Below, in pieces: positions 3,001-26,539 of a stretch of DNA of 64,000 nucleotides. The stretch is from positions 244,204 to 308,203 of the forward strand of contig CAJNDT010003380.1 of the NCBI GenBank assembly GCA_905221615.1. The letters are read 5' to 3'. The notes beneath the pieces are model-generated. The model was not told where the DNA came from and did no database searches. It saw only the letters and a program-made list of their open reading frames with translations. Both the position numbers and the translations under genes were made by a program. How positions within the stretch are numbered: position 1 is the stretch's first letter; every line of letters begins with the position of its first letter. The DNA comes from Symbiodinium sp. CCMP2592 (Eukaryota > Sar > Dinophyceae > Suessiales > Symbiodiniaceae).

Positions 3001-4124
3001 GCTGTGGGGCAATGGTGACAGTAAGTCCGGTGTGGACATGGTGCTGTCCTTCACGCGAGAGAGGGAACTGAGAGTCCCCCAGGAAGACCTCAACCCCAAG
3101 ATTAGGTCGTACATCAGCAAGATCAAGCAGGCTGTCAAGCGTCACATAGGCAGGGGATATTGCTGCAAAGACCCGGTGGTCCAGCTTGGAAGTGTCTACA
3201 CACAGAACACAACCATGTGTTGCCCAAAGTGGCAAAGCCAGGAAAAACCCTGAACCCGGACAGGGCTGGGGGTGTGCCGGCACCAAGAGAGGAAAGCGCA
3301 CAGCGTCATCTTGTGCGCGGGCATTGCTTACAGCCGCCTCAGTCTCTTGAATGGTGGCAGGAAGCCGGACGGCAGTCAGGAGTCGCTCGAGTGTGTAGCC
3401 TGGTGCCGCAACTGCAAAATGGACCCGGCGCACTGAGTCATCATCCTCAGACGAGTCTGAGACAGACTCACCTTCACTGGCGATATGCTGCGCATCGTGA
3501 GCCGGCAGGTATCGCCATGGCATGCCTAGTCTGGGTGCCGCATAGCGCAATGCGGCCAAAGAAGCCCGGTCTGATTCGCTGTTAGTGGTTGGTTCTGCCA
3601 ACCACTTGCAGTAACGGACGCCGAAAGAAGCTAGGGCCACAACGAGAGCGGCGGGCAAGATGTGCAGGTTATGCCTGTCGGATGAAAGGGGCGTGGCAGA
3701 CGCGGCTGCAGCCAAAGGCAGGCCCAAAGTAAGGATCAAAATGCCCAAAACCTCTAGTGCGGGGTGGCCAAGTCGAGGGTGAAAAGGGCACATAGTGTTC
3801 TTCCTTCGGATGGGACTGGAAGTAGCACTGGACAGGCTAGCAACATGCTTCCAAACGCAGGAACTGGCTCCACATGGAGGTGGAGTGCGGCTTCGAGAGC
3901 GAGAACGCGCGTCAGCGGCAGGACTTCCTCTGATGCGGTTCCGAGGTCCAATGCGAGGGGGAGTGGGGGGAGACGAGGAAGAGGAGCTGGATTCTTCCTC
4001 TTCATCATCCTCCTCCCCGTCAGGGATATCTGCAGAATCAATGTCAGGAGTGACAGGGTCTGCCAGGGCATCGTGGTAATACTCAATTGTAATCACACAG
4101 CCAGGATGAATCTGTATCCCTGTT
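1..4124 (-). CDS. LINE ORF2, 3' half: PQP modules, membrane segments, RNase H start (runs off the window)
   Basis: The minus-strand frame is open from 4135 to base 1 (about 1,375 codons) with no stop; it is easily missed because it ends at the window edge. In order: the tail of a module (HPGCVITIEYY), an acidic/serine stretch, an SR-rich patch (SRSRSRTPPP), hydrophobic segments near 3760-3720 and 3660-3610, a module with LVPAHPQP near 3270, a second with VSPQSQ near 2065, more hydrophobic segments near 940-740, then RNase H with CYTDGSF near 145-160. The stretch LEECVADPASEAFFLAATLL near 500-435 matches LEECLQHDVRPMFLASTLV of the plus-strand LINE. The frame enters directly from the insert junction, so it has no start codon of its own. 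Confidence 0.85.
4121..4124. repeat. Target-site duplication TGTT, left copy
   Basis: TGTT abuts the left inverted repeat and recurs at 26536-26539 directly after the right one. One copy is needed to restore the LINE reading frame. Confidence 0.65.
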
Positions 4125-4144
4125 CTGTGGTGTTGTTAACGGTC
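4125..4144 (+). repeat. Left terminal inverted repeat of the 22.4-kb insert
   Basis: CTGTGGTGTTGTTAACGGTC. The reverse complement of 26516-26535 is CTGGGGTGTTGTTAGTGGTC, a 17 of 20 match. Weaker similarity continues inward for about 14 bases. Confidence 0.7.
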
Positions 4145-4658
4145 TGCCGGTCTGGTTGTTGTTGTGCTACTCGAAGATGATATGTTCATAAGTCGTCCGA
4201 GCTTTGGTGCGAGGTAGATTGAAGTACATGTTGTAGCATACGTCCATGACTCGATCTGTTTATCAGTTGCGCTTTGTTCCCGCGCACAGCCATAGACTTT
4301 GATGCGAAGTATAATCAATAATCCGAAGTCTTCCCGCGCATAGCCCCCGCGCATAGTATAATCGATTCTTTTCTCACTTGCGCTGTGATCCCGCGCGCAG
4401 TCCCGCACCATTCCATTCGAGGATATGCCCAATCTCCTGAGGGAAAATTACATTTGGGAATTAATTTAAGCTCACCACTTAAAGACACTTAATAGACTAT
4501 CCCAGCCTCGATAATGCATGTCGAAACGGTAATCGGCCATGCATTTCCCAGGGCTGCTCCTTTCTGACTTTCAGAAAGAAATAGCCACTTGGTCCCAGTT
4601 GGCCAGCCTTGGCACCTAGCCAACTCCTTAGTTCGAATGATTAAATGACGAGAGAGAC

Positions 4659-4660
<2 letters not shown>

Positions 4661-4697
<37 letters not shown>
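4661..4697. repeat. (GA)n microsatellite
   Basis: About 18 uninterrupted GA units. The surrounding 4145-5300 shows no other convincing feature. Confidence 0.95.
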
Positions 4698-4700
<3 letters not shown>

Positions 4701-5369
4701 TTCGCTCTTGATTCAGGCCTGGCCTTTGTCGAAAGAAACCTCGCTTTGGATGTAATCCAATAAGAACGACTCGCACCACGGGATCGCGTCATCGTCGGGA
4801 GCCTGGGTCGCTAAGTATACTAAGATAAAGTATTTGATAGCATTTAAGAAGCACAACTGAAACTTATTCAGACTAGCATCTTGTCAAGCACCGGCTTCAA
4901 GCGAAACTTTCGGCTGGTGCCCGTATCAATAACCCTGGGCCGGGAGTCAACGATATTAGGCAGCAGTGCTTCACATATGAAACCCTGGATTGAATACTAG
5001 CGGACTTCGGAATTGAGCTCCACACCATGGCTCGGCATCGTCATGGCCATACTTCAGTAAATATTTCACACCAGCTTTCAAATTTCCTTTGGCTGTTTTC
5101 GTCGTCGGAATCTCCGGCTTGTGCCGGCAACATCTCCTGACTGTATGATATACAAGTGGTCAGACATGTTACAAATGCATAGCTCCACAGCAGAACCTCG
5201 ACAGCACCGACGACAGAAGTGTCTTTGTAGCACATGGTTTCGGGAAGCGAAATTTCCCTTAGTCACCATCACACTTTCCACAGAACAAATCAGACTCACA
5301 GCTGAAGCCTGTGGGTTTAGCCCACTCGGCTGCTACCCCCAATAAAGTGTTGAGCGAGGCACTCGATGC

Positions 5370-6896
5370 CAAACGTGTTTTATAGCCCACCAACCATAAG
5401 CGACGTCGTCGTTGAGGAAGATCAAAGTCCAGGGCATCCAGCACCTGAGAAAGTGCTAGACTTGAATATCCATTGAGCAGCCTTGCTGAATCCCTGGCCT
5501 TGAACCTGACAGTATACAAGCCATTGCATTTCAACCTTGGCCAGTCAGGGTTGCCTACCATTGAAAATTGCCAAGTGGTGCCACTCTCTCAACTTTAAGC
5601 CCCATGCTGAGCACAACACTTCGCAAAAATTTGATTGAAGAAGCTGCGGTGTTTCTTCGAAAGGATCCGCGGCACTGTTTCAAGGATAAAGGCATCCGGT
5701 GTCATTGCTCGGATATTTCCACAAGCCTTGGATTGGAGAGCCTTATGTTATGTTTTAGGGTTTAGGATTTGTGGGCTGGGCACATAGACACGTGAAGCTC
5801 CATCCTGCCTTCAAGAAGAGGCGTCCCCTGGGATCAAAGCGACCTTTGCCCCTTCCGCTTTGTGCAAAGGGTTGGCATGGCACACCGGCACCATATAAGT
5901 GGATATGCTTTTGCAAGCCTCGGTGTATGAATAAAAAACAAACGGCACATGCTCTGCACTGTGGTAGCAATCATCATACACACACACATTTATTATTTCA
6001 CGCGCACACACACACACATACAGACACTCAAACACACACACACACACACACACACTTACACACACTTATTCAAAAGGGTTTCGGGGGCTTGATGTAGGAA
6101 CCTGATTCAGAAGCCGTGGGTCTCGATCAGGGTTTTGTGCTTGAGTCCGAATATATTGGGATTATGGGGCCAGGTTTTCTTTAATCAGGTTCCTGCAGTA
6201 AGGGTTTCAAAGTCCAAGCGACTCGAATTTGCCGCTTCCCCTTCGCCACTGGTAGAACCCCCAGAACAACTGTTGTACAATCCTATGAAACTCTCACAAA
6301 GCTCCACAGACAACCTGTAAACCTGTACATTCTGACCCACATCACCATCTTACATCCCGAAACCTTGAATTAAACCCTTAGCCTTAAGCCCCTAAACCCT
6401 ACATCCTATTTCCGAAGTCCTGGATTCTAAACCGTCAGCCGAAGCATTGACTTAAAACGACTGGCCATGGCCCTTGTCTCTGCAAAGACCTGCGGACCAG
6501 CGGCTGATCGGTCGCTGAGCATCATCAGATAAAATCTCAGGAGAATATAGATTCCCAATGCGATTTCGCAAGATCTTGTTGCTCTCGGATGCATATACCA
6601 ATTTGTGTCGTAGTCCCGCCAACCTGAGATGAGACCATATGCTTCAGAGCATTTACAGCTGCAGCCAGTAGGTACCACGACTAACCCTAATTAACTTAAT
6701 AATGTAATAGTAATTATAAGGTGTAACAATTTAAGTTACACCTTATAATTACTATTACATTATTAAGTTATTAAACCCATAAGTTTATATCCCAAACCAT
6801 AAGTTTATATCCCGAACCCTAAAGTGCAACATGCCACTTGCAGCTGACACTCAGGGGCTCTAGTCCAGCAAAGTCCGAAGCCAGATGTAGAAGCAT
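5370..6896 (-). CDS. C5-cytosine DNA methyltransferase, spliced
   Basis: Transfers a methyl group from SAM to cytosine in DNA. Exons worked out by hand, minus strand: 6859-6896 (motif I-like SDFAGLE, possible start ATG at 6896), 6490-6623 (motif II/III-like LVYASESNKILRNRIGN, then SPEILSDD), 5809-5918 (motif IV GAGVPCQPFAQSGRGKG, holding the catalytic Cys in PCQ, followed by DPRGRLF), about 5590-5726 (motif VI-like PDAFILETVP, with ENV read as ETV but the key Glu kept), and 5370-5444 (motif VIII LDFDLPQRRRRLWLVGYK, the QxRxR signature). Motif order is canonical. Phases agree across the first four exons; the join from the motif VI exon to 5444 is unsettled. Donors are GC at 6858, GT at 6489 and GC at 5808, and every acceptor is AG|G. 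I do not see a clear target-recognition domain or motifs IX-X; coding may continue to about 5040. The catalytic core is therefore present, activity uncertain. Confidence 0.75.
5977..6066. repeat. Interrupted (CA)n microsatellite in a methyltransferase intron
   Basis: Runs of CA separated by short interruptions, between the motif IV exon and the motif II/III exon. Confidence 0.9.
6692..6770. repeat. Perfect 36-bp foldback (hairpin) repeat
   Basis: The arms 6692-6727 and 6735-6770 are exact reverse complements around the 7-base loop AATTTAA. It is AT-rich, lies in a methyltransferase intron, and its exact pairing suggests a young MITE-like insertion. Confidence 0.9.
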
Positions 6897-7199
6897 TGTT
6901 TTGACAGGCGGTAAGACTTAAGATCAAAGCTAGACTGGATCTGCGAGTTGGTTTTTTGAGGTTTAGGATCTAGCCTAGGGGATGGGCTTACGGTTCACTG
7001 GCAGGGTTTTCTTTGTATCTTGAAGCTCATCGATTGAAGACTTGACTTCATCCGACTACAAACTGAATTAACAATGGAGTTTCCTTTTACCTCCAGGTTT
7101 GAGCACATGCAATCAGAATAGATGTGAACAGCCACTGCACGAAGCGACAAGTTCAGGCAATACACAAGCACACACATCAGACTTTCCGCAAGCTCCGGT

Positions 7200-7336
7200 C
7201 TTTCTGAGTAATGCTTTCCAGTGCTTCAGACTCAGCGGCCCAAAATTGGACTATCAGGCATCGCTATGCTATGACATACGACCTAAATTAGCCGAGGCCC
7301 TCGAACATTATTACAAGCCCGATGCTCTCAGATAGC
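7200..7336 (+). pseudogene. Possible stray methyltransferase exon on the plus strand
   Basis: The plus-strand reading around 7220-7330 gives LCYDIRPKLAEALEHYYKPD, which resembles the motif II-III region of C5 methyltransferases (an acidic residue after a short strand, then a basic/leucine stretch and a proline). No PCQ motif follows downstream on this strand, so it would be an isolated exon remnant or chance resemblance. Confidence 0.25.
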
Positions 7337-7366
7337 CCTGGCCACTGCAGCACCAAACAAGGCTGT

Positions 7367-10300
7367 TCACTTCAGCTTCAAGAGACTCTGTGCCAGCGCC
7401 GACGGCTTGGCTTTTGCTTTCTTCTTGGCCTACTTAGGTTTAATAAAGGGGAATTCAACTTCGGGTTTAAAGGCGTTTAGGGTTTATAGCTCCCCGTGCC
7501 TGTGCCTTTGGCTGTCCACGGCCGCGTCCGCGGCCTCCCCGACCCCGGCCACCTTTTCCTCGGCCTTTGCCCTTCTTAATCGTCGGAGCCTGCAATGGCA
7601 AGTCACATAGGTTTAGGTGTGATTAAAAGATTAATGGGTTGGAGTTTAGAGTCAATAAGTCCTCTTCATCATCTTCTTCGGACTCTTCGTCCATGTCTTC
7701 GTCCTCCTCATCATCATCCTCTCCTTCGTCGTTGTCATCCTCTTCCTGGTCCGCTGCCTCTTCCGCCTCCACTTCATCATCGTCCTCACCTTCCTCATCT
7801 TCTTCCGCTTTCTTTTTTTTCGAAGAGGATGACTTCGGCTTTGCAGCCTAGGCTGCAGCAGTAAAGGCCAAAGCCACGGTTTCTTTTCAAGGGTTAAGGG
7901 TTAAATGTCAAGGCTAAGTTATTTTTTAGAGCCCCTTTAAACCTGAAAGCCCCTAAGACGCTTCATCCGAGAACACCCCCCAAGCCCTTGGTCCTGGACA
8001 ACCAATGCAACACTTTAAAACTCAAATTAAAATTTCCAATCCTACATCATCAGAAGCCAACTAGTTTTGCAGTAAAGGCACCGCTTTGCGCTTCTTTCCC
8101 AAGAGCTGAACCAGCCCGGCCTCATAAAGCGGAGAATCCGCCTTTTGAAACTCCCTGAAAACTTGACTTTCAAGTCGTCGATACAATCCTTCTTTGTGAG
8201 CATCATTGAATGTGATGCCCACGAGCTCGGCCCTCCGCTTGATGGCCAGCATACACGTCTTCCCGTCACCGACAGACAAGTCCAGCATGTGATGGATGTT
8301 GTAGGCATGGAAGAACTCTTCAACCTCGATTCATCGAAACTCTACCCCGAAAACCACCGAAGCCCCTAAACCTTTAAACCCCTATAAAACCTGAAGCCTT
8401 AAAGCTTTCAACTCGAGGTTTACAACATCGACGTGACCCCGTGCCTTTGTTTCATCGGCTCTGAATCCAGGCATAGTGAGAGGTTGGATTCAGGGTTTAG
8501 GGGTTCTGGGTTTGAATGTTTATGGGTTATTTATTTAGATTATTCAGATTCACGGATTTGGGATTTTGAGGCTTCGGCCTGACTCTCAAAGAGGTTTTGG
8601 GTTTCTGGGGTTCAGTAGTCTAGGTTTAAAGTTTTGAGGCTTGGAACCAGAAGCTATACCGAGGAGACCCGAAACCTCTCTCAACCCAGAAACTTTCGAG
8701 ATTGAAACTTAAATCCCAAACTATTGCAATTCCATAACCCATCGTTTTAAAAGGGTTCTACAACCCTATTTACAATATTCATGGGATTCACAACGTAGGG
8801 TTTAGCAGCTCCGAGCCCAAGTGGCCCAACTTTAGGGTTAATAGTGTCCAGGGTTATTTAACATTAAGCCCAAGTCTTGATTGCAAGCAAGGAACGGCCG
8901 TCTCCGGGAGAGCATGGTAGGTCATTGGTTCTTTGTCACCGTCTTGGCGGCGTCCTGGTTTGTAGAGTTCAGGGCTTTTGGTTGTGTGGTTTCAATAAAA
9001 TTGTGGTTGCTAGTTGTTGAGCGGGCTGTGGGGCCTTTGTTTTCAGGGTTTTAGTGCTTAGTAGAATATTTGCAACTCATCCTGCAGCTGCATCCTCCTC
9101 GGGTTCATTTTTTCCTCCCACACGGACCATCTGGGATCCATAGATTCTTTTCTTTTCGGCGAAGGTCAAGACCCAAGTTTCATCTTCGTCCTGATGACAG
9201 CACGAATCAACTAAACTTAAATTGGGCTTGACTATACTGTTAAATTAAACTATGGTTTGTCCTCCCACGATGGTGCTTGGATGGGTCCGACGATCTCTCC
9301 GCGTGTTGTGCAGTTGTAGTGGCATCTGTCGCGATATGGAGCCTGCGCCCCGTCATCGCTGGTCACGACGTAGACCCGCTCAGCGTTATAAACGTGATGT
9401 CCACGATCACGTTTCCTGCGGCTCCTCAGGCTGGGCTCTGCGACATGGAGCATGAGGGTAGTCTTGTTTTTGGCGACAGTCTCGCCCTCGCCCCCCTTGA
9501 TGGAGCCGAGCATTGCGGACTGCACACCTGATGGTTGCGGATGAAGAAATATTTAAAGTCGTCCTAAAAATAATCATCCCAGCTAGTAGAGCCAGCAATC
9601 AAAGGGTTTGGTAGGCGGTGATCAAGCCGAACTGACAATGCTTCGATGTCCATCGGAACTGACAATGCTTCGATGCCCATCCGAACTGACGATGCTTCGC
9701 TGTCCATTCCAACTGACAATGCTTCGTAGTCCGCTCCAACTGACAATGCTTCGATGTCCGTTCCAACTGACAATGCTTCGATGTCCGGCCGCAGTGGGCA
9801 ATGGATGTCGGGTCCAATGGACAATGATCGTTGATTGCTGATGATGATTTCATTTCAGGGTAGGGTTTGGGTTTAGGGTGGCTTAGGAACTAAAGAGCTT
9901 CATTATAGTTTAAATTTAAGGCTCAACTTACTTTAATCCCCCACAGACAGGCAACCTTCTCTTCCTCCATCCAGCATTAGGATCACATCTGACGCCGGCA
10001 AGCATCCCTCTGGCGTCAGTCGGCAAGCCAAGGCTGACTGCATCAGCTTCGGCAATCTCCCTTCTCTCAAAGGAGGCATGCGCACACTGGGTTGCGTAGC
10101 CGCTTCTCCACTCAACTTTGAGTCCTGGGATTAAATCAAGCGAACCCTGCTGAAATTTAGGATTCTTTCCCATACCGTCCCGACACCCGAAGCAACTCCT
10201 AACTGCAGCAGGGGTTCGAAGTAGATGGCGACAGACTTGTTGAAGATGATCCTCGTTTAGTATGCAGTTGGCGTCCATTGGAAATGGTTATTTGATTCAG

Positions 10301-13300
10301 GGATTCAATTCGGATAGCAATAATAATAAGTTGCAGTCGGGTATCTGATCTTGCAGGTGCGAGACCTCTCCCTTCCATTCCGGGACTTTGGTTGCTCGAA
10401 GGGCCTTTGTCATTCCCTTGATATTCACATCCTCGTTCACAAGGTACACGTGGGTGCGGACCATCTTCATTGCCTTCTCCTTGAACCTGAGTTTGCAGAA
10501 TTGAGGTCTATGGTTTCAGACTTTCAGGGTTTTTTTAAGGTCTGGGGCTCTGGGGTTTCATACCAGGAACCTGTCGGCCTTTAAAAACCATGTAAGAGCA
10601 CATCATCGGGGAATCAAAACCGCCTCAATTTTAAGCCCCAGCCCCTAAACCTAAACATTCTGGGTTAATAAGTATTATGCCTAATTTTCTTTTCGGCTTT
10701 AGGGTTTAGGGGGCCTAGGGCTTGAGGGTTTAGGGTGCAGGGTTTTGAGTTTTAGGGTCTAGGCCTAAGCTTTTATAGGATTTAAAGTGAATAGGGTTTC
10801 ATGTCGAGCAGCACGAGCAGCTTCCTGGTGGCATCATCGTCCAATTTCGGAGGGGCTTTATTCTTGCCTTCGCCAGGCACTTCCACCTGCAACAGAAGAA
10901 AAGTCATTGTCAAAGACTAAGTTGAATACTCCCAACTTGAAATGATAAGCTCGCAGTGCCCCTTTTCTCATAGCAAAGCCAAGCTCGAAGGAATTATCAA
11001 AATCGACCTTCTATCTAAGGCACCCAGGATTTCACTTCTTCGCTGGCTTCTTCGCGACCTTGCCTTTGGCATTTTCGGTGACTTTGATGCCAGTTTTTTT
11101 TGCTTGGATTCGCAGCTTATCACGTGACTTGATGTTGTCCTTGCCCTTCTTTTTGTCCCTGGTCTTGTCTCCCCTGCCCCGACGGATCTTATCATGGGAA
11201 CCGCTGGCCAGCTCAACATCGGCAGACTCCGCAGAGGAAGAAGGGCTATCATGGGGTCGCGGGACATCCGCGGGTCCAAGGTACTCATACTCGGGTCTCT
11301 TTGGCTTGGGCTTTGGAGGATTTGCCGGAGGATGGCCCGGCGGATGCCGCGGAGGGTTGCCTGGCTCTTCGGGAGGTTTCACCTGCTGCTTGACATTCTC
11401 CACATAAACGGTCAGGAATTCGGGATGCTCATCCCGAAACTTGAAAGTCACGCACCAGCCCGGCGGGATCTTTTCCATGGCTGCCTACGATGAAATCAGT
11501 CGGTCTACCCTATCAATTTCGGGTTCTGGGCTTGAGCAGGTAAAGCCTTGCTAGACATATTATCTGGGACATCTCAAGAATCTTGCCATTCAGGGCAGCC
11601 AGAACTTACACACCCAGTCATCCAAAGACATTGCAAAGTATCCCTCGCTGGCCTTAAGGTGGGCGTGTTTCTCCGCTTCTTCATCCTTCGGCTTCTCTTC
11701 TGTGGCATCATCTGCGAGGTTTTTCTCCATCTCCTGCAGCTCGCCTGCGGCCTGAACTTAGGGGTTTTATAATTATGGGCCCCTTAAATACTTGAGAGGG
11801 TGGGGCTTTGAACCGTCTTCAGGTCCGTTTAAAAGGGTGGGGTTTAGTTTAGGGTTTCGGGTTCAGAAGCTTAGTGGGTTGTCTAAAGTTGTCATACCAA
11901 TATTCGGCAGTCGAGCCTTCTTGCGCTGCTTCTCTTCATCTTCAAAGAGCCTGAGAGTTTATACATATTTTAAATTTGTAGGGATTTAGTTTGCATACAC
12001 GACAAAGGCCAGGTTGTGACTAAGCGTGCAACTCCAAGGCTTCTTGCACCACCTTGTCGATGTCTGCATGATCGGGCCAGTCTGGGGCCTCATGTTACTG
12101 CAAAGGCTATTTTAAACTCTCTAGCCCTCAGCAAAGGACCGGCCTGCTTTCTGTTCTTGAGCAACTGCTTGTAAACAGCAAGGTACGTCTCATTGAAGCA
12201 GCAGTTCTGCGGGGTTGCATGTATCATCGTATGAAACTAACAACTTAGATACACGTTTAGGGGTTTTAGGGTTTAGGGGCGTGAGATTTTGGGGGTTTTA
12301 GGGTTTATGGGTGTTGGGTTTTAAAGGTTTCAGGTTTAGGTGTTTTATAGGGGTTTAACTTTACAGGGTTTAGGAGTTTTGAGGTTTAGGGGTTAGTTCC
12401 ATCGAAGTACAACCCCACTCAGTCCTCGACATGGTCGAAGAAGTGCAGTGCGGACTTGGGCCAGCCTAGGTGCAATAGTGATGCACGACTTCAAATTCAA
12501 ATGCGGACGTGTATGCATAGGCATAGTCCCCCACTGGCTTTCCATGTCAAGTCAACTTTGTCGTCGTTGGCACCACAGTGCCTGTGAGACCAGGTTATCA
12601 TTCAAGAAGGACATTTAAATTGACATTCGGAGTTTCCCAACCCATTCCTGCGATAGGAGTCATGGGACTCGAAGACCTCCATCATCTTGTTTTTGACAGC
12701 CGAATCCCACTGCATCTTCCTAAGTCGTAGCTGGGCTAGTGGAAGCAAACACACACACACACACTGTGTCGTGCAGTCAAGACACGAGCAGCACTGCGTG
12801 AGCAGAAGGTTCTTCAGCTCCAACATGCCGATCATCATCACGGCCGTGCCACCCGGCCAGGAAGAACCCTCGAGGGCTCTCTTGACAAGATATTCGGGCT
12901 TCAGCCAACCATAGAAGTACCCATCCCACCTCGGAATAGATACTTGTCTAGCGCGGGTTGGCTCAGCAAGCATGCTTAAATTTATCGAGCAGCATGGCAT
13001 TGAACACCCAGCGAATGCCCTCTTGCGTTTTCCCTTTGCTCACAAGAATTTGGAGCTTGGAATAATCGTTGAATGGACTTCCGGAGTGTTCATCTGCTTG
13101 CAGCAGCAGGTTGGAGAGCTGGGCATCACGGAGCACCTGGGCATACTTGTTGTTTAGGTTTAGGCTTTTTTTTGGTTGAGGGTGTAGGGTTTAAGGGTTG
13201 AGGGTTTAGGGGTTAAGGGGTTCAGGATTTAAGGGTTTAGGGTGCGACCAGATTGTTTATATTTAGAATCACTACTAAAAGGCGACTTAGGGCATGGTTT

Positions 13301-15094
13301 TAAATTGTGTGTTGTGCAAGTTCAGACTTTCAAGGGTTCAACAGGACTCACTAGTTAGTAGAATCAGGTTGGGGTCGTGGATGCCATCCCAGGCACTCTT
13401 CTGCCCACAGTCACGGCCGTGTCCACAAACGTATCACTCACCTATCCAAATGTCAGATTCATTAGCTGATTGAAACAGGCGTCCAAATCAAAGCTTGCCT
13501 TCTCGGAATCATTGGCATGCTTGAACTTCTGGTCGTACAGCACACAGAAATTTTCAACACCTCGCTAGCACGGGCAAAGCTGGGAACACGATGAATGCAA
13601 TGCAAGACACCTTAAGTCCCAGTGGCTGATTTCTCCATGCGTTCGTTCATGGCGTGCTTTGTGGTTCAGCACAGAGAATATTTTCTGTATGCAAGTCAGA
13701 CCCATGGTCTGAGAATGCTTGATTTTTTCTTGTCTCTTATTCTGGGCCAACCAGAAGACATCGTCGTCCTTTGCAAGCTTGTAGGCGAAGTTCATATGCA
13801 AAATCGCATATCTCCAGGATTCCATGGAATCCTCGTGGCCGATGTCACGATGGATGGCCCTGGCTTGCCATTATTTAAATTAGGGCCGAGGGTTTGAAGG
13901 TAGGCTAAGGGTTCAGTGGCTGATGTTTAGTTGTGAGGAGGGGCTGACTTTATTTTTTCGGGGCTGGGGCTTGTTTTTGGTTGTCAACTGTATAGGCCCT
14001 CTCAGGTTTTGGGGTCCAGGTTCTGTAAAGGAGGCAGATCGAACCGCGCAGAGTGCCCTGAACCGCCCTAAACCCCGGCCCAAAGTTAATTTTAATTCCA
14101 GAGATAGCCCAGACTCAGACAGTGATTGAATCCTGAATGCTCCGGTACATGAATAGGTCCCGTCGTCAAGCCCAACCCAAGCCTGCATCCAAAAAAGCCC
14201 GTCACCCCTTCCATCTCAGGACAATATTATTTGGCCAAGTGGCAGCACGAAGGCAATCCGGTGTTCCAATGGAATGATTGGTTTCACCAGATCATGTTTC
14301 GTCATATCGCTCAGCCATGTAGAAGGCACACAAACTTCAAATGGCTCAGCGAAAACCGCCGCTTCCTTGTAGTGATAGGCCTTTATCTCCTCCACCATAC
14401 TGGCACGGATGGGAACCTGATCATAAGAAAGTACAGTAACAAAGCAACTTCACGTCATGGCTTTCCAAAACTTATCAACACAGGTGACATTGGGATCAAC
14501 ATTGAAGTCGACATCGCAGTTGAAGAAGTTGTTGGCGCATGTATACTCCTCGATAAAAGAACCAAGTGCCGATTTGGCAGCTTTGGCATCGAAGGGAGCC
14601 TTAGCCATTCTTGTAATTAGGGTTTAGGGGATTTGGGTTTTTGGATTTTAGATTTGAGGGTCTAGGTTTTTAAGGCTTTAGGGCTCTAGGGTTTTAGGTC
14701 TGAGGATTCAGGGCTTCATGTTTTTATGGTTTTAGGTTTGAGGGTCTTAAGGATAACCACCTCCCAGGATACATGATGATGCGAACAAGAAACCTGTGAC
14801 CCTCCTTCACCAATCTTCGAAGGGTTCTCGTTCTCGATCCCAGGCCAATATTCTTTGAGTGCTTTCAAAGCATCACTGTAGTTGGAGATGAGCTCTGCAT
14901 TCCAAGAAGCACCTTAAAACTTAGGCTGGTAAAAAAGACTAAGCCAGAGCTCCATTTACTTCCGTTCGAATTCCGAACCGACTTGGGATCACACCGCTTG
15001 GTGCAGAGGCTGATGGTCCGGCGTCGAGGACGTCGGCTTTCGAGGATTGGCGTCTCTTGGGCTGCGCAGCCGCTTTGTCTTTTTTCGGGGCCAT
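7367..15094 (-). CDS. Intron-rich gene with methyltransferase-like motif and acidic, RGG and lysine-rich tails
   Basis: Function not recognised. Start ATG 15094 (MAPKKDKAAAQPKRRQSS). Well-fitting exons: 14974-15094, 14794-14912, 14462-14599, 12972-13136, 11614-11751, 11059-11484, 10801-10886, 10366-10486, 9945-10251, 9262-9527, 9086-9190, 8082-8324, 7662-7847, 7500-7589, 7367-7429 (stop 7367-7369). Phases agree across every listed join from 11751 to 9086 and from 8324 to 7367. Less certain exons lie near 14228-14416, 13611-13859, 13442-13560, 12760-12945, 12605-12735, 12420-12520, 12120-12215 and 11898-11950; 8325-9085 is unresolved. The exon at 8082-8324 carries MLDLSVGDGKTCMLA, like a SAM-binding strand-loop, then a KKRK run. 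Next come a 62-residue exon of mostly Glu/Asp, a GRGKGGRGRGGRGRGRG exon and a lysine-rich end. These tails suggest a nuclear, nucleic-acid-associated protein; that part is inference. Confidence 0.6.
9627..9790. repeat. 27-bp minisatellite, about six copies
   Basis: The unit is of the form CCAACTGACAATGCTTCGATGTC plus four variable bases. It lies in the intron between exons 9945-10251 and 9262-9527. The unit is a multiple of three, so several frames stay open across it; this does not make it coding. Confidence 0.85.
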
Positions 15095-15160
15095 TGGAGC
15101 AAAAGGGACTTAGCTAGGCGAGCAGATTCAGCGTTCACACCCGGCCGCAGCATCAAATTA

Positions 15161-15182
15161 GTTATTATTATTATTATTATTA
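15161..15182. repeat. (TTA)n microsatellite
   Basis: About seven TTA units shortly upstream of the start of the 15.1-kb gene. Confidence 0.85.
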
Positions 15183-15248
15183 TCAAACGAATGCATACAA
15201 CCGTCGGGCTGATCTAAGCCTAGGGCGTTTTACACCCTACCCTTACAT

Positions 15249-15398: not shown

Positions 15399-15489
15399 AT
15401 CTAAGGCTAGGGTGTGTTCGTCCCTCCTCTTACATCAGCCAGACCGATATATGCATTAAGTTTTGTTCTAATTATATATATATATAATT

Positions 15490-15924
15490 CCTTAGATCAG
15501 TCGCCACCGGTCCCGAAACCTTTTCTTTAAACCCCTTAGATCAGTCGCCACCGGTACCGAAACCTTTTCTTTCAATCCCTTAGATCAGTCGCCACCGGTC
15601 CCGAAACCTGTTCTTTAAACCCCTTAGATCAGTCGCCACCGGTCCCGAAACCTGTTCTTTAAACCCCTTAGATCAGTCGCCACCGGTCCCGAATTGAATC
15701 CTTTTTCTTTAAATCCCTTAGATCAGTCGCCACCGGTCCCGAATTGAATCCTTTTCTTTAAACCCCTTAGATCAGTCGCCACCGGTCCCGAATTGAATCA
15801 GTTGCCACCGGTCCCGAATTGAATCCTTTCCAAATTAAACCCCTTAGATCAGTCGCCACCGGTCCCGAATCCTTTTCTTTAAACCCCTTAGATCAGTCGC
15901 CACCGGTCTCGAATCCTTTTCTTT
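15490..15924. repeat. Minisatellite with repeated TCAGTCGCCACCGGT boxes
   Basis: About ten units of 44-52 bp, each with CTTAGATCAGTCGCCACCGG followed by TCCCGAA and a CTTT/AAACCCC stretch. Unit length varies through a GAATTGAATCC insertion. It lies about 0.4-0.8 kb upstream of the 15094 start, so a regulatory role is possible but unproven. Confidence 0.85.
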
Positions 15925-16370: not shown

Positions 16371-16415
16371 CGCTACATTGGTTGGATGGGAATAGATGGC
16401 TCGTCGATGAAGAAG
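16371..16415 (+). repeat. Inverted partial copy of the ORF at 16514-16855
   Basis: The plus strand here has CTACATTGGTTGGATGGGAA followed by TGGCTCGTCGATGAAGAAG. The same two blocks occur on the minus strand within 16695-16795, where about 40 extra bases separate them. It is a local inverted duplication with an internal deletion. Confidence 0.7.
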
Positions 16416-16513
16416 TAAAGCTAACTGAGCAATCAAGCCCGAAAATGAAGCCTCGAATTGAAAGTTGAAACCATCCGGTTATTTTCCCTTCCACTGTCAA
16501 AGCACTGCTCAAG

Positions 16514-16855
16514 TCAATCCATTGTGTTCAAATCTATCACAGAAAGACGCAAAGCCTCGAAACACTGGTCTTCGTAGTTCGTTAGCAGAATCTTATTTCC
16601 GACTCTAGCTTCCACAACGAACCAGAGCCACTCACGTCGATAGATCGTGTCCCCGATAGGAGCCGTCATCACCCACGACCATGCATACTGCTGGTGCTCT
16701 TCTTCATCGACGAGCCACAGGTGCCCTGCTTTCTGACTAAGTTTCTGTAACCATTTCTTCCCATCCAACCAATGTAGGGATATTGCATGTATAGTAACCA
16801 GATCGCCATCATACTCATCAGGTCGCAACAGTGAAGCACCACCGAAGTAAACCAT
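16514..16855 (-). CDS. Hypothetical protein or large exon, 113 aa
   Basis: Open from ATG 16855 to a stop at 16514. The composition is protein-like and rich in Trp (HWLDGKKWLQ, HLWLVDEEEHQQ, YAWSWVM, EWLWFVVEARVG). No family recognised. An AG directly precedes the ATG, so it may be an internal exon instead. It lies between the 15.1-kb gene and the zinc-finger gene on the same strand and could belong to either or be separate. Confidence 0.45.
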   Translation of the reverse strand: MVYFGGASLLRPDEYDGDLVTIHAISLHWLDGKKWLQKLSQKAGHLWLVDEEEHQQYAWSWVMTAPIGDTIYRREWLWFVVEARVGNKILLTNYEDQCFEALRLSVIDLNTMD

Positions 16856-17125
16856 GGCTGATTGTAAGAGGCCCGGGTCTTTGCCAAATTAGATCCTCCA
16901 AATCAAACCGAGCATGATATCTGAGATGATGCTAACTTGAAGCTCATAAAGCGAACATGATATCTGAGATGATGCTGCTCTGTTCATAAATCGAATATGA
17001 CATCTGAGATGATGGTAACTTGAAGTTTGGAGTGTGAGTTTGAAATTGATCAGCACAAGCATGCATCGACTAAAGAACTGCGTGCGACAGTCTAAGTAGG
17101 ACCCTTGGCTAGAAAGATAAGCCTT

Positions 17126-17238
17126 GGGTACTGCCCCCATACAGTAACAGTCTATAATAGGGCTACTATTATTTAAGGGCCTGATATATTTATATTATGA
17201 ATGTTATCCGACTGTTACTGAGTGGGGGCAGTACTCAA
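17126..17238. repeat. Foldback element, family GTACNGCCCCCA, copy 1
   Basis: The arms GGGTACTGCCCCCATACAGT and ACTGAGTGGGGGCAGTACTC are near-complementary. The interior shares CAGTCTATAATAGGGCTA (allowing one mismatch) and other blocks with the copy at 56767-56900. Confidence 0.8.
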
Positions 17239-18252
17239 GATAAGCCCGTCTTTTCAGTTTCGTAGGCTGATGCACTAATCCCCGTCATCACCAAAATTAC
17301 ACTGGCCGCGATTTTCGCGGTGATGCACTGATCCCCCTCATCACCTGCCACAATGGCCACGAAGTGTGGCTGACCTCTTAATTTCCACAAATGCTTTGCA
17401 AGCCGTGGATGCGGTGAATTTGAGATGCACATGTGCCAAATCCTCGGAGTTGAGGGTTGAGGGTTTAAGGGTTTAAGATTGCGGATTTAGGGTTTAGGAG
17501 GTTTGGCTTGGGGCTTCCAGTTACATAATTGAACTGCAGTCCAGCTACATCGTCCTTCATCTCTTCCTTCATAATAAAGCAGCACATTCGGGTGCGCTGA
17601 TTCTGCATGGTCTTTGTGCGGCTGCGTGCCTTGGACTACAAAGGCTTAAGAGGCTGGAAGTAATCATGTTAACATATGAAGCCAGAGTTGCAGCAAACGT
17701 CGATCGCTCCATGATTTGTTGCCAACTTTGACAAGCCCTCAGCAGCTTGACGATCAGCGGAAATTTCGCAGAGAATTTGTCAGATGCCCACCAGATCCTC
17801 TGCACCTTCGTGGCACACCTGGGCTGTAAATTGGTGAATGGTTTGTCGCTTTTACTTTGGGACTTGGCAGGGCTCTGATTAACGTTGCGTTATTAGAAGA
17901 AGATTGCCTTGAAACCCGCCCCTTCATCCCAAGCCCCTTGTCCAAAAAAACGAAGCTTCAAAAAACCTTATCGAAGGACCCGAGACATGTTCTTGACGAG
18001 GGCAGCCCGGCAGCAGGAGGTAGAGTGGCTTGGAGGTTCTATTCTTGGGTTGCTTCAAGACTTAGGGTGTGTCATGTAGGGCTCGAAGTCAACATGGTTG
18101 GTTAGGGTAGAGGGTACGGAATCTGGGGGCTTAGGTTTTAAGCAAAGACCCGGAACAGAAGCGAAGGGAAGCCATTTTTTCGATATGCAGCTGTAACCAT
18201 CCCTGACACCAGACCCGAATCCCTGCATGATACCATACGACGAAGTCCCCCT

Positions 18253-18363
18253 ACTTAGACTCTTAAAGGATCATGGGACTTAGTAAGCAGGATTGTAATC
18301 AATAATATTGGTGTACTTACAATCCTGCTTACTAAGTCCCATGATCCTTTTAAGAGTCTAAGT
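18253..18363. repeat. Foldback repeat with 46-bp arms
   Basis: 18253-18298 and 18317-18363 are reverse complements except for one extra T. The core GATCATGGGACTTAGTAAG recurs in weaker form near 23240, which suggests a family. Confidence 0.88.
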
Positions 18364-18444
18364 AATAAACTAGGGTTATAAGTTTTAAGTAGACTTATTA
18401 TAATTACTTTGAAACCATGCCCTCAACCCTCAGACCTTAAGACC

Positions 18445-21400
18445 CTACCGGACTGAAGTAAAACCGCTGACACCTTCGATGAACCATTGAACCGATGAGC
18501 CCAAGCCGAGTGTCTTGTAGGTAATGAAGGCACCCTTCTTGCCGCCACTCGAAAAGTAGAGGGGAGAGGCGATTGCCCTGTCAAGTGGCAACGGAACACT
18601 GGCTCACAATTCTGAACTTGGGTTCTTAGTTTTTCAGGGCTCTGAATTGGAATTCCAAGGGTCGCCCCAGCCAAGAAACAGCGGAAGCAGACGGCTTTGG
18701 ATGGCTGCGTGACGTCAGCGGTGACCGCCACATTGGCTTTGCACCTAAGCTGCAGCTGACTTCAATACAAGCTCAGGGAAGGCCGGGAGTTGGGGGCAGT
18801 GCAGATCTGTCGTGAGGCGCGCCCCCACTGCTTTCACAGAATCTCGTGTCCGCTGTTCTGGCACATCTTTGGCCACGTAGACTTTCATGTCGGCAAAGTC
18901 CATTCGCTCGGAGCCACCTGCAGAAGAAAGTAGTTAGACTTCCCACCGATCCCCGACATTCGATTTAAAACCTTCCAGCATTGGGTTGAAAGCTGGCAGG
19001 ATTATTTACGGGGGTTGATTTCTCAGGGTCTTAGGTCTTAGGCATGCCATCATCGGGTTCAAGGTAGATGGTGTCCTACTATGTAATTGTTCTTAGTCCG
19101 TGGACCACAAATAGAGTTAAACGCTTGGCTCAGGAAAGCCACATGCGACGGCGGCATCTCCTTGGCATTGCAGGCCAGGTACATTAACAGAAACTTCCGA
19201 TTCCTATTCCTCGTCCTACTACATGATTGAGCGGGGCTTCGATCTGCAATCTTCTTCTCATATTCCTTTCGTCGCTTCTTCTCAGACTTGTGGTGGTCTG
19301 AGGCATCGGCCTCAAGCTTCCTTTTCTCTCTGGGGCATTCCGGCACATAGGTGCCAGCTTGAAAGGCAACGATAGCCTTCTTGTGGTGCTTCTGCCGGTT
19401 GAAGCTCAGCTCCTGCTCGTGTTCGGCAGACCACATATCTTCGGCCATTCGCTTCATCCATCGCGGCGAGGGCTTGTCGTCACAGGACGACAACGACACT
19501 GCAGCTTGCACAGCCTGCCGCCGGTTTTTCAAGAATGCAGTCTCGCACTGCATCGGCGATTTCACTTTCGTATTCTTTCGTCGCATACACAATCTTTTCA
19601 CGGACTTAGTTCCACAGGTTTGAGAGCAAGTGAGAGCAAATCATGAGGGCTCGAATTTAAATACTGAGATGACAACTTTTCGGATGTTGCCATATACCAT
19701 GGCCTGGAATCGGAACCATTGCACGAATCATGTCAAATCTCACATAAATTGCTGGCGAAGGGCCCATTCTTGCTGTGCTTGATTGACCAGCCTCAGAATC
19801 ACAAAGACCATTGGCCAGTTTAGTAAATTGGTCACTTGGCTGGGGCTTCATAAATATGGTAAGGTCAGGCAGCTCGTCTTCTTTGTCAAGCGGGTAAGAC
19901 AGTGTCCGGAGTTCGTCATTGACCTTGTCCTTTTGGCAACGTCTCTTCTTCAAGAGCCACTTCGGAAACCTGGGAAGGGATATCGAAGATGTTAACTTAA
20001 TAACCAACTGGCATAAACTTTAAAGCCTTAGACACGGACCCCTAAATGTCTGTCTCCAATAATCAAGCCTAGTCTCCTAGCCTAGCACTAGCACTGAATC
20101 CTGGAAGTATTCTGAAGGGCTGAATCCCACGGCCCGAACCCTCAGCTTTGAACCCTAACCCTAACCCGCCCTAGACCCTAAACCTCGGTATGATTGATTA
20201 TGAGGTTTCAAAAATTTTTGCTCCAGCGATCATGAATCTTATCTTAGATTCCGCCACGGAACGTTCTCTCCACACCGCTGGTGCTAAAGCCCCAACTTTG
20301 TGCACGCAACACAACAGCATGCACAGCATCTACCGGTCGACCGGCTTTTGCATCTTTCATGACCTTAAATTAAAATCAAAGAAATCAGAGTGGCCAATCA
20401 AAAGCCTAGCCTTGCAGGCAAATCCTCGACCCTTATCATAACTCTGAACTTGCCATACACAGACACAGCCCGGGCCCAGCATTCCAGCGCAGGCTTCTTG
20501 GTCGAAGCTCGGATGCCAGCTGCGAGAGGCTTGACATCGAAGAGTTGTGTAGTCAGTGTTTCCTGAGACATGTTGTTGAGACTGACTCAAGCGAAGAATC
20601 AAGACTTTTCTCAGAACAACTTGCATCAGAGTGTCTGCTGGCAGATTCAACACATGTGCCATCCGATCAGCTGCCTCCTGGATGTCGCCAGGGTCTTCAT
20701 CCAGCTGGAGGAGCGTGGTGATGGAGTGGAAACTTTCAAAGGACGGCAACTCGGCCCGGACAACCTCTTTCACCAGGGTGACCCATAGATGCATTCTCGC
20801 AGCCACTTTCCGTAGAAGTTGTTGTGTCAGTTGCTCTTGGCCACCGATTTTTCGAGTATGACCCGGGCCGTCAAAATGCAGAACAATCGGCTCTTTCTTG
20901 AGCAACGTCCTGAAAAGACAAAGTTCTCATATAGAGGACCTAACATTAAGCATAGCTTGTCAGAACTCAACGCAAGCGAGATGCAGCAAGAAATGTCCAT
21001 ATGTCCCTTTGGTTTGCCAGATGCGTCCCTGGCTGAATAGATATGTGATTCGATGAATGAACCTGAGTTGATTGAAATTGGCCGAGGATTCTTCGACTAC
21101 GACGTTTCGTGTGACCGGGCTGCAAACCGTCCGAGCTCCTGCTGCATCTCCACACCATGCAGCTGATCAGTGTCCGCCATACGGACTATCACCATGTGTT
21201 CGTCATGAGCATCCGCCAGTGCCGCGAGTGTCCTCGCAAGTATCGGAGGTATATGATAAGATCACAGAAGAAGCAAGAAGTCTAACTGTAACTTGACACG
21301 ACTAAAGCCAAGGCAGTGCCATCTCTGCATCACATCGATGGAGCAAACCTGCCATCGCCTGACCCTCCGCCTGCAACAGCACATCGTACAGGTTGCTCAA

Positions 21401-24400
21401 TCTGACGACTGGGATTTATGCAGGGTGCCTTTTGTGATCTCTCCATTGCAATCTGCTCAGCCACAATCAACAATGCAGCGAAATGTCGCACCGACCGCCC
21501 GAGCGGCCGCCGAAGGCTTTCGTATCTGCCAGAATTTGAATGAACCGGGGTGACAGGGAGTCTCTCTGAATTAAATATGGGCAAGCATCTGGAGCAACTC
21601 TTGGGTTCCTGGGTTATCTTTGGGCTCTAGGCTTGAGCACTCGGTTTCAAAGCTCATTGTCAGAGTGCCTGAACAATTTAAATATTTCGGGGGTTCAGGG
21701 TTCCAGGAGGTGGGTTTAAAGGGGATATTCAGCGAATGTATGACCCGGGCTGTTTGCAGAGGTCTGTAGGTCAAAGATTGAAAGCATCTTAAAATTAGAG
21801 ATGGCGCACAGAATTCCCGAAGCATCTGAATAAGACCGGCCTGTGCTTTGCAGCACATAACGAAGCCACAGAACCACCATCGTTTTGAACGAGATTCTCG
21901 AAGCGTGCCTGGCGGCGAGGGGCATTTACTCTTTCCACCTGAGATTTATAAAGGGTCCATGGGATTTAGGGGAGTTAGGGCTTGTGGGTTGGTAGCTTGG
22001 AGGCTTCAGGCTTCATGGTTGATTCTACAAGGGCCCTGAAGGATAAGGAACCCCCAAGCCCAAAATAAAACAACTGACAAAACCCAGAACCTCCGAGGAT
22101 GAAATTTGGCATCGAGCCTGAGAGCGGGTGTCAGGGTGATCCTGGACTCGGCGGGGGCAGACATGTTCTCTAAATATTCACCCCTGTAAATCTCTTCACT
22201 ACAAGCTACAAGTTTCAGTCTCTGGGCACCATAAACCTGTTAAAGCCCCTAAAGCCTAAAGCCCTACTCAGCTCGAAACACCCCATGACTAGAACCCCCA
22301 AGCCCAAATCACGAGTCTCTCAACCATGTTTAATAAGAATGTCTTCCGAAACAATCCTACAAACACTTTAATCCCCAAGTCGCGAAAACACAGACAACCA
22401 AGAAACACTGACCCTGAAACACAGCTCGTGCAAGCGAGTCCGCCCAGGAATCATGCAGTAAGTTAAAGGACTACCCCACTAAGCATGAAATGTAGCAAAT
22501 TGTCACAAGCGGAATGACGGACGAGTCGTGAAAAAATCAGTTCATGCAAGCAAGCAGCCCAGTCGTCGTTAAAGGACTAGTTGTGTCGGGCCCCCGTGCA
22601 AGCGCGAATGTTGGCAAATGCATACAGTCGCAAAGAACAAAGTTCACGTAAGCAAGTCCTCCCAGTCCTCATTCATAGGTCTCTTCAGATCACCACAACA
22701 ATGTCATGTATGTAAGCAGACCAGTGTTCATCGACGCCTTCAATGACCGGCTGGCTTAGCTCCTTAAGCCAGCCTTCAGTCATCCCGTCGTCGTGTCAGA
22801 TTGCTACAGCCATGCATGCACAAAAGCGGCAGTAGCCTGTTGCTACCGTTGACACCATCGGCAGGAACGTCGCACTGCCCGTTTGAAGTTTAATAGTCAG
22901 ACATAATAAGAACTTCGTCGTCGTAGTGGTGGTCGTAGCAGCAGCAGAATCAGCTTAGTATCAGAAGTAATTTAGCAGCGGTGGTAGACTATGGTACTGG
23001 TAGTTATGTAATTCCATGACAGATTGGCTTCAAGATTTAAGATCTGGCTTGCTTGATAACTATCAGATCTTTTCGAAATCTGGGGTAAAGTGGATACCTA
23101 GGTACACCTGCAGGCCCCAAAGAGTACCAGAATCAAGCTAGCATGAGAGAGCCCAGACATGTGAGCACCGGAAAGAAAAGCTTCGCGGCAGCTCTTCACC
23201 GTCAGCCCCAAAACCCTCAATAATCGCAAACCCCACTTAGAATCATGGGACCTAGTAAGGGTTTCTTAAGTAGGTTATAATTTAATAACCACAGGGATTT
23301 TAACCCTCATGATCCTGTAGTAAAGAGTGCAGCAAAAGCCCTGGGAAACCTCGTCAGCCTCTAATCTCAAAGACAAGAACACAAGTCATCCTAAGCTTGT
23401 CCTCAGCCCTTCCAACGACCCCAAGCTCTTGGAACCCTGAATAATAATTTAACACCCTATTTAAATCCCAGGTCTCAACCTCAGAAATCTGTTTCGCCAA
23501 TTGGGTCTTGAATGCTTGAATCCTGAGTGAGTTGATTGACGGCTGCATATCTACAAGGTCTGTCCTTTTTGGACATCGGCTGTGTTAGGTCATTGCTCTT
23601 TAAAAATTTAGATTATTGTACCTTCTGCGGCAAAGGTTTTTTTGGTTTATGGGTTTTGGGTTTCAGCTTGATTTCCGGGATCTTATGCTCGGGGATTACA
23701 ACTCAGGGTGATTAAAGATTTATGCGGGGATTTAGGGTTATGTAGTGGTTTAAGACTCCAATGGTTTAGGGCTGATTTCGGATCAGCTGACTTGAGAAGC
23801 CCAGAATAAACCTCTTGAAGACCCGTGAGTAAAGAGTGAAGCAAAAGTCCTGGAAACCCTCGTCTGCCTCTAAGACTAATCTCAAAGAAAAGAACAAAAG
23901 GCACCATCCTAAGCTTGTCCTCAGCCCTTCCAACGACCCTAAGCTCTTGGAACCCCGAAGAATTTATCACCCTATTTAAATCCCAGGTCTCCGAGGGCTT
24001 AGTCCCTGAGAAATCCGTGATAAATACTTATGGAACCAGTCGGCTGTGTTAGGTCATTGGTCATTTAAATTATGGTGCCCACTGCGGCGGCGAAGGGTTT
24101 TTGTTTATGGATTTTGGGTTTGAGTTTGATTACAGGATCTTATGCCGGGGATTACAACTCAGGCGATTAAATAAAGTTAGTGGTTTAAGACTCCAATAGC
24201 TTAGGGCTGGTGATTGGGATTTGGGATCAGCTGAATTCTGAAGCCACTTGTCACTGTTTTGGACGAACATGATTTCATCCTGGAACCTGAACATAAACCA
24301 AAATACAAAGTCCTACTTAGATCCTGTAGTAAGAGCAGCGTACTAGTTTATGTAACTTTAGTCCCGTAATAACCAATCAATCTGGAGTAGGACTGCCGAA

Positions 24401-26169
24401 CATAGGGCCTTGAAGACGGTGCTGTAATGGATGAGCTGGCATGGAGATTTCTTGGAATTGACGAAGAGGTCCATCCTGAATCCAAAATGTTGGGATTTAC
24501 TACGAGTCAGGAGTGTCAGGATGCTTTCTTGCAATCTGATGTTTGAGACGAGGGACACTTGCTTCAAGTAAGGGTCTGCAAAGGTTGTGCGGCTTGCAAC
24601 GCGTCTCATACAATGGGCGAGGTCCCGAGTTATAATCTTCAATCCTGTGAATTTGTCGCCCCCGAACATCATGTTTAATGCCAGCTGCTCATCGCTGGCA
24701 CCATCGGCCGTCATGGCCTCTACCTTTGGGAGGAAGCGCGGCACGAACTTCTTGAAGTCACATCTTCTCTTCTTAGACATCGGAAACTTCCCAGCGGGTT
24801 CAGCAAACTCAGTAATGACTGTTTCGGTAGCCTTGCGTATCGCAAGGGCATGGAGGTGCTCAATTTCTTGGGGCAAGTGAAAGGCCCCAAGAAATCCACT
24901 GCGGTCGTCGAGCTGATCAGAAGCACTCCCATACCGAAGAACAAGCCATCCTTTGGAAACATCTTGTTGAAGGCTGACGGACCTGGCCTGATCCCTTGGC
25001 GGCAAGCATCTGATCCCGGACTAAGACGATCAAGGCTTACATAAATCTGTGAAGCCCTTATAGCCAAGAAGCAGCCAAACAAGGGTCAACTTTCTCGCTG
25101 CCTCGCCCAAGCATGCCAAGACACATCTGCTTTTGAATCGTCCAAATGCCTCAGAGCACACAGGATTTGGTACCTAGTCGGTTCCAAACTTCAAATGACG
25201 AGATGACCAGGGATTCTTAGAAGACCAGTCACATCTTTCTCAAGATCTTCAGAGTAGTCTTGGGCACGCAACTTGCCGATCACTCGTCGAAAGATTGCAG
25301 CAGAAGGAACCTGAGCTGCACAATCTTACAGTAAAATTTCCGCCATCTTTTAACTTGGACTGGCATGATAAATACGGCTGTTGACTGAAACTCACCACGA
25401 ACACGATTTAAGACTCATCAAGAAATCATGGTCAAGGCAACATGGCATGCAACGTCAAGGCGGCCTCCCATGACTTGTGATACGATGCCGCTTGCATGGG
25501 AAGGAGTGCCTCCCACAAAAGAACACTGCTACAGGCTCCCAGCAGGCACATAGCCCATTGCCCTGCTGTCATCCACCTCGAGCTAAGGTGGGTTGGCCTC
25601 AAGAGCCTATGCAAGCACGGCATGATCACGCCCCGGGCCCGGCCAGCGACCCGTGCAGGAAGAGACAATAAAGCTCGTGTCTGCCGTCTGCTTGGTGGGG
25701 CTAAAGCTCGCCGCTACCGGCGGCTGAACAAGATTGATCGCCCATGTGCAACCGAACAGATATCTTATAAGTTGCAGTCGGGCTACGAGGCGGCCTTTGA
25801 AAATCACCCAGGAGGAAGATTCTGAATCATCCTCCTGCATCACAGCCATCCGGTGAGCAAAGCTGCTTTCGTGCCGCACCAGCCAGCTTCGATCAGGGAC
25901 GGTCTGAGATAAGCCACAACTCACGGCTCGACTCGTCGATTCTCCATACTTAGATGTCCTGGTCTGTGCTGCTGTCAAGCGGCATGCGTTTCTCCACATG
26001 CCTTGTTGGAAGACCAGGCATTCTTCAAACCAGCTGCTTTACATTGGCTGCAACCTAAGCCATCCTTGGTCACCACAAGCCAAGGGAAATCGCGCACCCA
26101 GGACGAGCTTCTTCGGCACAGCTCTTGCTGCCAGTGCCATCGCCTGCCGCTCAACAGCGGCATATCCAA
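18445..26169 (-). CDS. Spliced zinc-finger gene resembling hAT-type transposases
   Basis: Exon-like blocks, minus strand: 26045-26169 (WVRDFPWLVV, then GLGCSQCKAAG), about 25860-25990 (RSWLVRHESSFAHRMAV, in another frame), 25190-25310, 24410-24987, 20470-20909, 19850-19969, 19240-19610, 18750-18917 and 18445-18560. The C-x2-C and H-x5-H halves together look like a BED/TTF-type finger. The 24.4-25.0 kb exon has TADGASDEQLA and RDLAHCMRR, spaced like the DGA and CxxH-type motifs of hAT transposases. The 19.9-kb exon has KDKVNDELRTLSY, like the helix after the hAT C-terminal signature. These parallels are inference. The two finger halves are out of frame by one base, and several joins are unproven, so this may be a decayed gene. 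hAT elements make 8-bp target duplications, unlike the 4 bp seen here. Confidence 0.45.
23330..24245. repeat. Tandem direct duplication, unit about 0.45 kb
   Basis: 23330-23805 and 23825-24245 share long blocks in the same order, for example CATCCTAAGCTTGTCCTCAG, then CTGTGTTAGGTCATTG, then GTGGTTTAAGACTCCAAT. Small indels separate them. It lies between exons of the zinc-finger gene. No coding signal. Confidence 0.8.
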
Positions 26170-26515
26170 AGCTCAGCTTCTGAAGCTGAGCTCTAGATAA
26201 TTGTCAAGCTGAATCAGAATCTTGATATGACTTTGTGCTTCGTCACCTTCTCGATTTATGCGTGTCATCTTTGCGCGCTGAGTTTGTTGAGAAACCCACC
26301 GCTACAACTTAGCTTGACTTGCATGGATCATGACATGGCCGCGCAGCACTAGCAGCTGCGGATCAGATTCAGATCGTTCGTTATACACACGATTCGCAGC
26401 CGCGCATCATTCGTTCCACATGACTAAGCACGCAACTTTGATGATCTTTGACAAGTTCCGCGCTGAATTTGTCACCAAGTTACCATGAGATAAGACATGT
26501 CAAACCCAACCGCCC

Positions 26516-26535
26516 GACCACTAACAACACCCCAG
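26516..26535 (-). repeat. Right terminal inverted repeat of the 22.4-kb insert
   Basis: GACCACTAACAACACCCCAG on the plus strand; the inverse matches 4125-4144 at 17 of 20 positions. TGTT follows at 26536-26539. Confidence 0.7.
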
Positions 26536-26539
26536 TGTT
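26536..26539. repeat. Target-site duplication TGTT, right copy
   Basis: Matches 4121-4124. Only four bases are shared, since the flanks diverge outside them. Confidence 0.65.

Follow-up and report, generated by a model that had tools for sequence, protein, structure and literature searches.

The window analysed here, a 64,000-nucleotide stretch of the dinoflagellate Symbiodinium sp. CCMP2592 (assembly GCA_905221615.1, contig CAJNDT010003380.1, positions 244,204 to 308,203), contains a 22.4-kb element that is very probably an autonomous, unusually large and intron-bearing DNA transposon, belonging to a family of large multi-gene elements. The evidence lies in the structure of the element, its ends, its related copies and the constraint on its genes. 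As proposed in an initial annotation of the window, the element is bounded by terminal inverted repeats (TIRs), is nested in the intact reading frame of a long interspersed nuclear element (LINE) and carries three intron-rich genes. That annotation also regarded the genes as unusual cargo, a view that has to be given up: gene 1 most likely encodes the element's own transposase, gene 2 is a regular partner of gene 1, and gene 3 is present in both complete elements identified.

Each end of the element directly abuts a TGTT target-site duplication (4121-4124 on the left and 26536-26539 on the right, neither with a strand). The left TIR (4125-4157, plus strand) and the right TIR (26503-26535, minus strand, with related termini at C713 and C4940, see below) are identical at 17/20 positions at their tips, CTGTGGTGTTGTTAACGGTC at 4125-4144 versus CTGGGGTGTTGTTAGTGGTC, the reverse complement of 26516-26535. 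These are the repeats and flanking TGTT initially described, and the similarity in fact continues further inward, to 26/33 bases. On both sides lies minus-strand LINE sequence, as seen from its translation and the rejoined frame: the 5' part at 26540-30963 and the 3' part at 1-4120, from where the frame runs on for about 5 kb past the left edge of the window. Removal of the insert and one TGTT produces a single open frame of 2849 amino acids inside the window, which becomes a stop-free frame of 4498 amino acids once the 10 kb to the left are added. Because this frame is open throughout, the two halves belong to one LINE and not to different subfamilies; the residues across the join align without gaps to a sister LINE (by eye, from the translations), in agreement with what had first been noticed, and the host frame displays no visible decay since insertion. 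An assembly artefact fusing two loci is hardly credible: the locus is known from assembly sequence alone, but matched TIRs, a duplication, a restored frame and independent related copies all speak against such a fusion. Two further observations concern the LINEs. A frame of 4498 amino acids is very long for a LINE, and the sister LINE has, far from its C-terminal end, an RNase H-like stretch at residues 1092-1237 in a frame of 2782 amino acids (E=4e-4, below the Pfam cut-off).

Subterminal repeats of the kind familiar from hAT elements are found just inside both ends. CCGCGC occurs on the plus strand at 4280-4402 on the left (starts at 4280, 4334, 4347 and 4391) and at 26339-26463 on the right (starts at 26339, 26400 and 26458); this hexamer and CGCGCA are each present four times in the left 400 bp and three times in the right 400 bp, versus three times in the 21.6-kb interior. 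The resulting enrichment is 54-fold. Among 400 random 22.4-kb segments, drawn from the window plus the adjoining 10 kb on its left, the best other motif, a telomere-like repeat, reached 23, while the four segments at 46- to 54-fold owed their values to the CCGCGC/CGCGCA motif again. The subterminal repeats are an independent sign that these ends are transposon ends. The TIR 20-mer alone, searched genome-wide with up to two mismatches, gave 24 matches versus 36 for a reversed control and is thus not above chance.

A search for other copies sharing both termini and gene content, suggested with the first description, found a second complete element and a partial one in the same assembly. The former, in C4940 (2334182-2365001; 30,820 bp), has TIRs identical at 37/39 positions, AAAA on either side, and genes 1 to 3 arranged as in the window element, both in order and in relative orientation, its methyltransferase match stopping about 250 bp short of the far end. 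All 54 of the 54 translated matches kept between the two elements are collinear, separated by gaps of very different length, as expected of introns. In the matched codons, the divergence at nonsynonymous (pN) and synonymous (pS) sites is as follows: pN is 0.322 and pS 0.745 for gene 1 (640 codons), 0.310 and 0.739 for gene 2 (865 codons, including matches at 17341-17823 of the window whose gene is ambiguous), and 0.344 and 0.782 for gene 3 (321 codons). As the matches were picked by protein similarity, which favours a low pN, and pS is saturated, these values do not provide a precise ratio; all three genes nonetheless look constrained over a long time.

The partial copy, in C275, is nearly identical to the C4940 element in the stretch read, with 99.8% identity over 2535 bp and 99.4% over 1977 bp. 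It stops at the identical base to the C4940 terminus, after which the flanks differ (TATA... versus AAAA...). For the part of the C275 copy compared, this pair is most simply read as the whole intron-bearing element having moved recently. A third place, C713 (369703-369871), shares the right-terminal 170 bp or so at 79% and is otherwise unrelated, homology halting exactly at the predicted tip; within 70 kb around this terminus, 5 kb of which is N, P0001-P0004 had no match at E 0.001. Position 358475, which has a matching CGAA, was considered as a left end there but rejected, since 14/20 matches occurred seven times versus eight for the reversed pattern. TIRs with a short duplication and related copies elsewhere, features expected of a cut-and-paste transposon of the TIR type, were thus found.

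These copies also bear on the idea that host genes were trapped between unrelated repeats, or were carried once by a passing transposon, and have no role in movement. Dinoflagellate host genes are intron-rich, as are those of the insert, whose GC content (0.46-0.50) equals the value for the window's ordinary non-LINE DNA. Such trapping is nevertheless highly improbable, given that the C4940 element has these three genes, in unchanged order, within its own matched TIRs even though synonymous divergence is saturated, that genes 1 and 2 occur together at 24 places, and that gene 1 is transposase-like.

Gene 1, intron-rich, occupies 17341-26157 on the minus strand, with outer limits that are approximate and come from C4940 homology; the conserved blocks at 17341-17823 could belong to either gene 1 or gene 2. 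Two candidate catalytic aspartates, D1 in SVSLQQDVSKG and D2 in TADGASDEQ, lie in the exon at 24402-24994, and a candidate glutamate lies in STSGVERTF (20250-20354). A gene-1 relative is predicted to have an RNase-H core and an extended helical stretch ahead of the E, and the best structural match of its model, obtained with VIA-align and not with Foldseek, is the hAT transposase Hermes. P0009 gave a sub-threshold Pfam match to zf-C17orf113 (E=0.038); a PDB sequence search with P0003 gave no match. The most likely product of gene 1 is a hAT-like transposase belonging to the element itself, presumably a remote one that retains candidate D, D and E residues.

Gene 2, also intron-rich and without assigned function, extends over approximately 7488-15085 on the minus strand (C4940 homology reaches down to about 8151), and its end carries acidic as well as RG-rich stretches. 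Its sole protein match was P0004. No Pfam family was found with the gene-1 and gene-2 models, and PDB sequence searches gave best E values of 0.56 for P0004 and 0.52 for the gene-2 exon at 8064-8330; a fold of this exon, with a mean predicted local distance difference test (pLDDT) score of 54.6, was not used. The spacer between genes 1 and 2 contains a tandem array at 15490-15924 with a 44-bp unit (CCTTAGATCAGTCGCCACCGGTCCCGAA...), and single related units are present at 15236 and 15364.

In an own-genome search at the level of exons, P0001 had at least 51 matches and P0004 at least 56, which collapse to at least 40 gene-1 loci and at least 37 gene-2 loci. Pairs of the two within 20 kb number 24, versus 0.05 expected from random placement, and are on the same strand in 24/24 cases, gene 1 preceding gene 2 in 12 and following it in 12. 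These pairs are not 24 independent events, as several look like copies of each other; among the matches listed, 16 gene-1 loci and 13 gene-2 loci have no partner, including C275, whose contig starts inside the element. Gene 2 is nevertheless a regular partner of gene 1 at many loci. Many relatives are long uninterrupted frames, of up to 1081 amino acids for gene 1 and 1015 for gene 2. Such uninterrupted relatives adjoin each other in two opposite orders, in C5285, C735, C5063, C4912 and C763 and in C5153, C3050, C113, C676, C3002, C3613, C802, C2310, C2856, C3147, C191 and C1313, and several copies give equal scores. In one lineage, C191, C485 and C1313 are more than 99.9% identical over the 3450 bp compared, and the uninterrupted relatives are apparently separate, recently active lineages. 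Between C3613 and C3050, patchy similarity extends beyond the genes, from which the outer boundaries of these multi-copy relatives cannot be fixed.

Gene 3, at 4492-6893 on the minus strand, is an intron-bearing C5 cytosine DNA methyltransferase gene with an approximate 5' limit, homologous exons in C4940 and a 3' end about 370 bp inside the left end of the element. A hand-spliced partial model matches PF00145 (E=5e-18, 66 bits for a cut-off of 22) over profile positions 63-166 of 324, and its PDB matches are the HaeIII and HhaI methylases. The protein displays PCQ, LETV (for ENV), PQRRRR, CQGWP and GNAWP, which we take to be the motifs of this enzyme class; C4940 has ENV itself where the window element has ETV. 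A Pfam match together with catalytic PCQ and QxRxR-type motifs, by which C5 methyltransferases are recognized, is thus found here over part of the profile. Two perfect inverted repeats inside the element, at 6692-6770 (36-nt arms, 7 nt apart) and 18265-18350 (34-nt arms, 18 nt apart), resemble very recent hairpins or tiny foldback insertions. The gene content also bears on a rival origin of the insert, as an endogenous DNA virus or a Polinton-like element some 22 kb long, which would account for the size, the TIRs and the presence of several genes. This origin is very improbable, considering that no Pfam family matched genes 1 and 2 (in a scan of the gene models, which does not exclude capsid, polymerase or small viral genes), that gene 3 is a methyltransferase and that gene 1 is transposase-like.

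Several points weigh against an autonomous hAT-like transposon. Both ends and a 4-bp duplication are seen at two loci only, and AAAA sits in A-rich flanks, which makes the length of this duplication less sure than that of TGTT; the left end of the C275 copy is off its contig, which begins inside the element, and only the right end is convincing at C713. The C4940 element lacks the CCGCGC repeats in its outer 400 bp, where no other hexamer passed the same test. The Hermes match derives from a model that was built on a 10-sequence alignment and has a mean pLDDT of 57.7, for a relative with 26% identity and not for the window protein, while plain Foldseek with the P0003 model gave nothing at E<0.001; its best rows, to MutS with E values from 0.006 upwards, were regarded as uninformative. 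No hAT family was found in Pfam with the gene-1 model (up to E=1) or with P0001-P0003 and P0005-P0011 (up to E=5). Finally, the gene models were computed from genomic sequence alone.

The relationship to hAT elements is also a matter of classification. Both complete elements have a target duplication of 4 bp (TGTT in the window and AAAA in C4940) and not the 8 bp of hAT elements or the 5-7 bp of their subgroups. By its predicted fold and D-D-E pattern, the element would act like a hAT transposon, yet it is not filed as one because of the 4-bp duplications and the lack of a match to a curated hAT profile. These same features raise the possibility of a new DDE superfamily, distantly hAT-like and defined by a 4-bp duplication and a transposase/gene-2 pair, with the methyltransferase as an extra module of one lineage. 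This proposal, which we hold tentatively and at somewhat less than an even chance, is favoured by the 4-bp duplications at 2/2 complete elements, versus 5-8 bp in the hAT groups described in PMC12730594, by the lack of a Pfam hAT match and by the recurring gene-2 partner; the best structural matches to Hermes and the predicted D-D-E arrangement, with its long helical stretch ahead of the E, fit hAT instead. A bolder scenario, which we place only just short of even, is an undescribed ancient superfamily of giant intron-rich dinoflagellate transposons, marked by 4-bp duplications and by a hAT-like transposase that has diverged far and has a regular partner protein. One lineage of it would keep a DNA methyltransferase of its own and thereby methylate, and perhaps hide, its copies in a mostly CG-methylated genome.

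If the element is an autonomous DNA transposon, the gene-1 protein would, as a hAT-like DDE transposase, bind the subterminal repeats and TIRs, excise the element as DNA and insert it at a staggered 4-bp cut, while gene 2 would provide an accessory protein that often accompanies such a transposase. Since the element would move as DNA, its introns would travel along, and their presence in both complete elements is consistent with this. The likeliest role of gene 3 would be to encode a cytosine methyltransferase, kept by selection, that methylates the element's own DNA, which may allow the element to blend into a heavily CG-methylated host genome or its ends to be handled properly. The CpG observed/expected ratio of the element (0.71) is within the range of its surroundings (0.61-0.81), and hence no depletion argues for or against self-methylation.

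A single short gene is the usual content of a cut-and-paste transposon. An element of 22-31 kb moving three intron-rich genes as a unit would be a route for split genes to spread as mobile DNA in dinoflagellates, and the near-identical copies at different sites make its activity testable now. Among the matches listed in open-licence PMC papers (titles and abstract beginnings), no description of this element was found.

Several known systems nonetheless share some of its features. Like the hAT elements Hermes, Ac and hobo, it has a predicted RNase-H core with a predicted helical stretch, two candidate D and a distant candidate E, short imperfect TIRs and, for the window element, subterminal repeats; it differs from them by its 4-bp duplications, its size of 22-31 kb, its three intron-rich genes, the gene-2 partner and the lack of a Pfam hAT match. 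Fungal DNA transposons of several groups, including hAT (hAT7), carry TET/JBP oxygenases according to PMC12730594. These are likewise DNA transposons, some of them hAT, with an enzyme acting on 5-methylcytosine, although the enzyme is an oxygenase in fungi and here a methyltransferase in a dinoflagellate; cytosine-modification enzymes are thus recurrent on mobile elements. The presence of a C5 DNA methyltransferase gene on a DNA transposon has a precedent in Mariner-1_OLpv, a viral Mariner with a transposase, an endonuclease and a C5 methylase (PMC3627910), whose Mariner-type transposase and large-virus location differ from the hAT-like, intron-rich and nuclear element described here. SymbioLINE-Dnmt and SymbioDIRS-Dnmt3, described in PMC5890265, are Symbiodinium retrotransposons whose DNA methyltransferases evolve under purifying selection, in a genome with methylation mostly at CG. 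Those elements combine a methyltransferase with a reverse transcriptase, whereas gene 3 lies inside TIRs with a transposase-like gene and the LINE is the interrupted target. The methyltransferase-bearing mobile element described here, being a TIR DNA transposon and not a retrotransposon, thereby extends to DNA transposons the puzzle of why Symbiodinium mobile elements have acquired DNA methyltransferases time and again.
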